A DNA stretch of 64,000 nucleotides from an uncultured bacterium (GTDB taxonomy: Bacteria > Calescibacteriota > Calescibacteriia > Calescibacteriales > Calescibacteriaceae). The stretch covers positions 1 through 64,000 of the forward strand of contig CALHPK010000007.1 of the NCBI GenBank assembly GCA_938036315.1, read 5' to 3'. The position numbers and the translations under genes are program-made. A model generated the notes under the pieces. It made no database searches and was not told the origin of the DNA. It worked only from the letters and a program-made list of their open reading frames with translations. Of the stretch, positions 7,443 to 44,467 are shown in pieces. Numbering within the stretch: position 1 is the first letter of the stretch; each line of letters begins with the position of its first letter.

Positions 7443-7809
7443 TGGTGGAGATGGGGGGATTCGAACCCCCGTCCGGTGCACAAAGGTATAGGAAGTTTAC
7501 ATGCGTAGCCTGCAGTTAATCTTGAGGTGGGTTCCCTGCAGGCACGGACTCTCCACCCCAGAGCCCCTTAGTTTTCAGAACTCCTCCCAGGGCAAGGAGA
7601 AGTTCCTAGCCCTCTGGTTGGCGCCACTTGACTCCGAGAGCGAGAAATCAAGTGACGTCCCTGCTTTTATGCAGGGAGAACGTTCCAAGCTCTGGCAACC
7701 TTTTTCTCCCCTAAAAGGCGGGAGCCACCCGCACCGGGAACAAAATGAACCCGGCACTTCATGAGTTCCTATACCCTCGCACTGCACCGTCAAGCCCAAT
7801 ATCATCCCC
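7443..7809 (-). ncRNA. ssrA: tmRNA (ssrA)
   Basis: This is transfer-messenger RNA, which rescues stalled ribosomes by alanine donation and tagging. The 5' end GGGGATG pairs with CATCTCC at the 3' end, followed by encoded ACCA (7446-7443). The T arm GGGGGTTCGAATCCCCC sits at the 3' end. A long P2 helix is supported by complementary segments 7766-7775 and 7485-7494. The likely tag frame resumes at GCC 7696 and reads ARAWNVLPA then TAA (7669-7667), with the stop in the loop of a CCCTGC/GCAGGG hairpin as in other tmRNAs. That tag lacks the usual C-terminal ALAA. The RNA is much more G+C-rich than surrounding genes. Confidence 0.92.
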
Positions 7810-43288: not shown

Positions 43289-43924
43289 TCACACATATTT
43301 TTCGAGATTATCTAAATTTATAGAAAATACTTTTTCTCTCCAGCCCAATTTTGTATCCCCTATCTTACCCTCCATCCCTGCCACTATAACAATCACTTTA
43401 TCAAATATGTCCGGAGATCCCCTTGGTGGGGGATATATCTCTGCATTTTTATTTTCCTCAACTTCAAAAATCTCAAGAAGTTCGTCTATAAGAATTCCTA
43501 TATAGTCATTCTTCAGAGAAACAATGAGGAAAATTTTCCGCTTTCGCAATATATCTTCTCCTGACCTTGGATCATCTGCACTACCACTAATTACTGTATA
43601 TTCCTTTCCTTTGCTTTCACCACTTTCTTTGCTTCCCCCCTCTTCTACAACCATCTTCCCATCATCAGTACTACTGTCCTGCCCATTCTCCAAACCCTCT
43701 ACATCTATTATCTTTCTTAGATCAATAAAAGGGATCAATCTTTTATCGTTCTGAGCAACTTCTATCTCTCCAATACCTATAACATAATTCTTAGCCCCTT
43801 CAACAGGAACTATACCCAAACTATTACCTTTATCCTTTTCTACCTTCTTAACCCTTCCTATGTCTATGGCAAACTTCCTCCCTTGCACACTAAACAGTAT
43901 ATATTTCCCTTTTCCTCTCTCCAT
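43289..43924 (-). CDS. CheW-like protein with an internal insertion
   Basis: CheW scaffolds link chemoreceptors to the CheA kinase. Both beta-barrel halves can be read: YILFSVQGRKFAIDIGRVKKV and RLIPFIDLRKIIDV at 8-75, then KIFLIVSLKNDYIGILIDELLEI from 130. Between them, residues 76-129 are an acidic, serine- and glycine-rich insertion absent from normal CheW, making 211 instead of about 160 residues. This could be a surface loop or a linker. No cheA gene is nearby. The gene diverges from the cold-shock gene. Confidence 0.72.
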   Translation of the reverse strand: MERGKGKYILFSVQGRKFAIDIGRVKKVEKDKGNSLGIVPVEGAKNYVIGIGEIEVAQNDKRLIPFIDLRKIIDVEGLENGQDSSTDDGKMVVEEGGSKESGESKGKEYTVISGSADDPRSGEDILRKRKIFLIVSLKNDYIGILIDELLEIFEVEENKNAEIYPPPRGSPDIFDKVIVIVAGMEGKIGDTKLGWREKVFSINLDNLEKYV

Positions 43925-44077
43925 GCGTATAGCCCAAAATTAAATTTAAAAATTTACTTCAAAGATATAGGGAAATTTCAAAGATATGGGAAAATCCCCC
44001 AAAACAAACCTTTCCAAAAATCAGATAAGCTTTTTCAAAAATTACTATTGTGTATGGGAAAATAAATAATATTGGTT

Positions 44078-44142
44078 GATTTCTGAAGATGAATTTTGAT
44101 ACAGATTTTGGAATCAAAGGTCAAGATTTATCTTCAGAAATC
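44078..44142 (+). promoter_or_regulatory. Long hairpin in the leader of the cold-shock gene
   Basis: Segments 44078-44100 and 44120-44142 can form a 23-bp helix with a 19-base loop, ending 34 bases before the cold-shock protein ATG. The first 13 pairs are perfect. The three non-identical positions are all G-U pairs in the plus-strand RNA but would be A-C mismatches in a minus-strand RNA, which points to an RNA element of the csp transcript. No T-run follows, so it is not an ordinary terminator. Confidence 0.65.
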
Positions 44143-44176
44143 TAAGAAATAAGAAAAAAAAAGAGGTAAAAAGACA

Positions 44177-44467
44177 ATGAAAGGTAAGGTAAAGTGGTTT
44201 AATTCAAAAAAAGGGTTTGGCTTTATAACATCTGAGGATGGACGCGATGTCTTTGTCCACTGGAGTGATATAAATAAGGAAGGTTTCAAATCTCTAAATG
44301 AAGGCGATGAAGTAACATTCGAAGTAAAAGAAACTGAGAAAGGGACAAAAGCTACAGACGTAAAAATAGTAAAGAGGGTGGGAGGAGGAAGAACCACAGG
44401 GGAAGAAGGAGGTAGAAGCCAGCCAAGGTTCAAAAAGCAAGGCGGAAAGGAAAGGAGAAGATTCTAA
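44177..44467 (+). CDS. csp: Cold-shock domain protein (CspA family) with basic tail
   Basis: A cold-shock domain occupies residues 1-67, with RNP1 KGFGFI, RNP2 VFVHWSDI and start [13 protein letters not shown]. It binds single-stranded RNA or DNA and acts as an RNA chaperone. Beyond the domain, about 29 residues are rich in Gly, Arg and Lys ([23 protein letters not shown]), an extension not found in classic 70-residue CspA and likely to add RNA affinity. AGAGG precedes the ATG. The leader carries a long hairpin. The stop is three bases from the end of the convergent ugd gene. Confidence 0.94.

Follow-up and report, generated by a model that had tools for sequence, protein, structure and literature searches.

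The leader of the E. coli cspA messenger is an RNA thermosensor, and the mRNA is stabilised about 100-fold upon cold shock (PMC9947658). In S. aureus, the cspA leader forms an almost perfect 32-bp helix that is cut by RNase III; cleavage makes the mRNA more stable and promotes its translation, and the resulting shorter 5' hairpin goes with a half-life of >16 min as against <2.5 min (PMC3386247). A 5' stem-loop that blocks RppH and RNase E is an established means of mRNA stabilisation (PMC3997798; PMC7509114).

Little work has addressed the way in which hyperthermophilic bacteria perceive and respond to cooling. Here we describe a long hairpin located in front of a cold-shock gene (csp) in a 64-kb window (the whole stretch of DNA analysed, 64,000 nucleotides), together with its counterparts in other genomes of the phylum. 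The features of the locus are listed in the table.

The csp gene and its upstream hairpin

The gene downstream of the hairpin is a genuine csp. Its product matches the Pfam cold-shock domain (CSD) with 96.6 bits (E 7.8e-28), its best match in the PDB is TmCsp of T. maritima (1g6p, 2.1e-23) and it is the only csp match found in the genome. Since the left neighbour, a CheW-like gene, is divergent and the right neighbour convergent, the hairpin, if it lies in a messenger leader, belongs to csp.

Features of the csp locus (positions are those of the window)
Feature	Position	Strand	Basis or remark
CheW-like gene, divergent from csp	43289-43924		
Candidate promoter, TTACTA - 17 nt - AATAAT	44042-44070	+	weak (8 of 12 matches), inferred
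5' arm of hairpin, 23 nt	44078-44100	+	pairs with 44120-44142; mean pair probability 0.997 at 37 C
Loop, 19 nt, with possible 4-bp inner stem (GAUU/AAUC)	44101-44119	+	folding
3' arm of hairpin	44120-44142	+	sequence, folding
A/G-rich unpaired linker with Shine-Dalgarno (SD) AGAGGT (about 44162-44168)	44143-44176	+	0.72-1.0 unpaired at all temperatures folded
csp, 96-aa cold-shock protein, basic R/G/Q-rich tail	44177-44467	+	Pfam PF00313

The two arms (GATTTCTGAAGATGAATTTTGAT and GTCAAGATTTATCTTCAGAAATC) form a continuous stem of 23 pairs, 20 Watson-Crick and 3 G-U, which ends 34 nt before the csp ATG. The three remaining positions are G-T, T-G and T-G on the plus strand, and thus G-U in a plus-strand RNA and A-C in a minus-strand RNA. 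The original prediction had described the pairing, the nature of the three differences, the distance to the ATG and the identity of the gene in these terms, and all four are borne out. Taken alone, the three differences make a weak case for a strand bias, which chance would produce in 1 of 8 cases. The bias gains weight because the leaders of related genomes also fold better on the csp strand (see below).

Clearly, a stem of this size is exceptional. No other gap-free stem in the window is as long, nor is any in 444 kb of sampled sequence from this genome, where the runner-up has 18 bp. From base composition, 2e-5 to 1e-4 stems this long are expected per strand in 64 kb, and when the 252-nt intergenic region was dinucleotide-shuffled 2000 times, a stem of 23 was reached once (with G-U pairs unrestricted). 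The folding energy of region 44040-44180 is -35.8 kcal/mol (z = -6.87). A search of the hairpin region against Rfam gave only matches far under threshold.

An 18-codon ORF (MNFDTDFGIKGQDLSSEI, 44089-44145, plus strand) spans the hairpin, with its stop right behind the 3' arm. It has a 15-codon counterpart in one related genome (G002) and none in three others (G001, G003 and G004), and we have taken it as a chance occurrence.

A strong stem ahead of a gene might act as a transcription terminator or attenuator. Neither strand carries a T run behind the stem, either by inspection of the sequence or in a scan of it, and for this reason we do not consider the hairpin to be a terminator. The upstream gene is, in addition, divergent, and the equivalent hairpin that follows hisS in G002 likewise has no T run. 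This explanation is hardly credible.

Hairpins in the csp leaders of the phylum

We compared five genomes of the phylum (G000, that of the window, to G004) belonging to three genera. Each contains a single csp, in one of three types of neighbourhood: divergent from the CheW-like gene (G000), divergent from a gene of 143-150 aa beside metK (G001, G003 and G004) or after hisS on the same strand (G002). The Csp proteins (loci L003, L005, L007 and L008 in G001 to G004) all carry a basic R/G/Q-rich tail, which follows the cold-shock domain and FVHW and is shared with T. maritima TmCsp.

All five leaders include a strong hairpin or a tandem pair of hairpins (in G001 and G003, two of 11-13 bp). The first pair lies 80-99 nt and the last pair 23-35 nt before the ATG. 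For a window of 100 nt that stops 10 nt short of the ATG, the leader fold z was -5.9, -5.7, -3.8, -7.0 and -3.6 (G000 to G004, respectively). None of the other leaders sampled from the same genomes was as extreme as that of csp (0/203, 0/48, 0/37, 0/45 and 0/47, in the same order; 0/380 altogether); this set takes in tRNA, RNase P and riboswitch regions. As a further control, 80 csp leaders from other bacteria gave a mean z of -0.9, with only one below -4. The signal is weakest in G004, where z is -1.6 with a 120-nt window instead of -3.6 with 100 nt. The csp strand out-folds its complement by 8.1-14.4 kcal/mol in every genome, compared with a mean of 0.9 (sd 5.4) for other leaders.

Two other RNA features were noted in the genome of the window. 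One is a tmRNA gene (7443-7809, minus strand), whose predicted 29-residue tag, AGTSLDFSLSESSGANQRARNFSLPWEEF, is longer than usual and has an unusual ending. The other is a cobalamin riboswitch (L118:6268-6485, minus strand).

The sequences of the leaders have diverged extensively. Alignments among G000, G002, G001 and G004 are no better than chance, even within the genus that includes G001 and G004. One alignment, of G000 with G002, seemed acceptable by eye and included double compensatory changes; it was no better than those of shuffled sequences (z 0.48) and was dropped. Only G001 and G003 can be aligned. They differ by four substitutions in the stems, all of which keep the pair in plus-strand RNA while two of the four would break it in minus-strand RNA. 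The chance that four of four transitions keep their pairs is 0.12, or 0.0014 (0.194^4) when substitutions of every type are considered. Compensatory changes in orthologous leaders had been proposed as a check of the original prediction. The four pair-keeping changes are one-sided; two-sided changes were not seen among the csp leaders of the phylum, which are either too similar to one another or too divergent to be aligned.

The recurrence of hairpins in five genomes, their extreme fold z, the strand bias and the pair-keeping substitutions lead us to conclude that the csp messenger retains a structure whose sequence can vary freely. The proposal that selection acts on the messenger itself is thus supported: the leader hairpin is present in each of the five genomes and in every case folds more stably on the csp strand.

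These results also bear on a DNA-level origin (an operator dyad, a remnant of a mobile element or an assembly fold-back), as might be suspected of an intergenic inverted repeat between divergent genes. The repeat is single copy in its genome, an assembly artefact would pair perfectly, and a bias towards one RNA strand is found in all five genomes. The occurrence of other hairpins at the same place in the relatives largely refutes this explanation, which we regard as highly improbable.

Ribosome-site access, temperature and ribonucleases

The original prediction offered three functions: a thermosensor, an RNase III site or a stability element. As the gene is a csp and thermosensing is known for the cspA leader of E. 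coli (PMC9947658), an RNA thermometer governing access to the ribosome site must be considered. In G000, neither the SD nor the ATG is part of the stem; both are predicted to be mostly unpaired between 5 and 80 C (0.72-0.97 and 0.73-0.98, respectively), and the hairpin would therefore not be a thermometer that masks the SD. Predicted accessibility in the relatives shifts only modestly with temperature, and folding the csp leader over temperature revealed no alternative fold. The thermosensor function, in its ribosome-masking form, is therefore unsupported and we consider it unlikely.

Another possibility is that the hairpin sets the loading of Csp or of the 30S subunit on the open A/G-rich linker, that is, that it serves as a Csp autoregulation target or as a ribosome standby site or translation enhancer. 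The distance between hairpin and ATG is similar in the five genomes, and Csp proteins bind single strands and, in E. coli, influence the mRNA that encodes them (PMC9947658). This has to be set against leaders that cannot be aligned beyond chance among G000, G002, G001 and G004, and we consider the idea rather unlikely.

Processing by RNase III, as in S. aureus cspA with its near-perfect leader helix, would fit the length of the stem in G000: the enzyme prefers about two helical turns, close to what 23 bp provides. The hairpins of G001 and G003, by contrast, are too short for it. Moreover, neither of two models (TIGR02191 and PF14622) detected RNase III in the five genomes, while controls were positive. 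The genomes are 82-86% complete and such absences are not absolute, although all five agree. An RNase III site is thus very unlikely. Full-length RNase Y or J was also not found in the five genomes, which gave only weak partial model matches. RNase E/G is present in all five (310-335 bits) and appears to be the main decay enzyme in these lineages.

Reverse gyrase, a mark of hyperthermophiles, is found in each genome with >1100 bits, and on this evidence all five organisms are hyperthermophiles. Half of the hairpin pairs are predicted to be lost at about 85 C in G000, 83 C in G002, 90-91 C in G001 and G003 and 93 C in G004, values which are extrapolated from 37 C energy parameters. Predicted melting is therefore near plausible growth temperatures, and it is possible that the hairpins become firmer on cooling.

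Messenger stability and comparison with known leaders

The stability element fits best among the three functions offered, with an SD and ATG predicted to be open, RNase E/G present and RNase III undetected. We give about an even chance to the reading that the hairpin is a 5'-leader stabiliser of the csp messenger, similar to that of ompA. A 5' stem-loop would deny RppH and RNase E access to the 5' end of the csp mRNA, resulting in a longer-lived messenger. Cooling from the growth temperature may strengthen this protection and would then provide more Csp in the cold without masking the ribosome site.

The ompA-like reading depends on the position of the transcription start. We infer this start, as well as the protection and its dependence on temperature, from sequence and folding. 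The candidate promoter of the table would place it at about the first base of the stem; none upstream of csp passes a stricter, standard promoter scan. In G001 and G003, a transcript from the best of the weak candidates would carry about 7 unpaired nt ahead of the stem, and these would weaken an ompA-like protection.

A more specific version is that the hairpins are near melting at growth temperature (83-93 C), close on cooling, block RNase E/G and so raise the level of Csp. We consider this rather unlikely. If true, it would represent a thermometer acting on decay rather than on ribosome access, with its shape kept and its sequence turning over completely even within a genus. A csp leader hairpin kept by shape alone over the whole of a small, poorly known phylum provides a simple, testable cis element.

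Comparison with the known systems is instructive. The E. coli cspA thermosensor is likewise in the leader of a csp gene but is a long, rearranging fold that covers the SD and ATG, whereas the present structure is a local hairpin; the Rfam cspA covariance model does not match the csp leader even at E up to 1. The suggestion that the hairpin is of a different design from E. coli cspA is thus confirmed, with the reservation that simple long hairpins in csp leaders were already known from S. aureus cspA (PMC3386247). The resemblance to the latter lies in a long, near-perfect helix in a csp leader, upstream of the SD, and in a 5' hairpin reported there to stabilise the mRNA (PMC3386247). The differences are 32 bp and RNase III in S. 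aureus, as against 23 bp, RNase III undetected (in five genomes, incomplete as stated above) and a hyperthermophile of another phylum. By this analogy, a csp leader with a simple hairpin is no novelty as such. The novel part is that the element occurs, and that its sequence turns over, in a phylum of hyperthermophiles in which RNase III could not be detected. With the E. coli ompA and papA stem-loops the hairpin shares a (predicted) stable stem-loop in the 5' part of the leader, a free ribosome site and the presence of an RNase of the E/G class to block; it differs from them in that the start is deduced, the gene is a csp and protection may depend on temperature.
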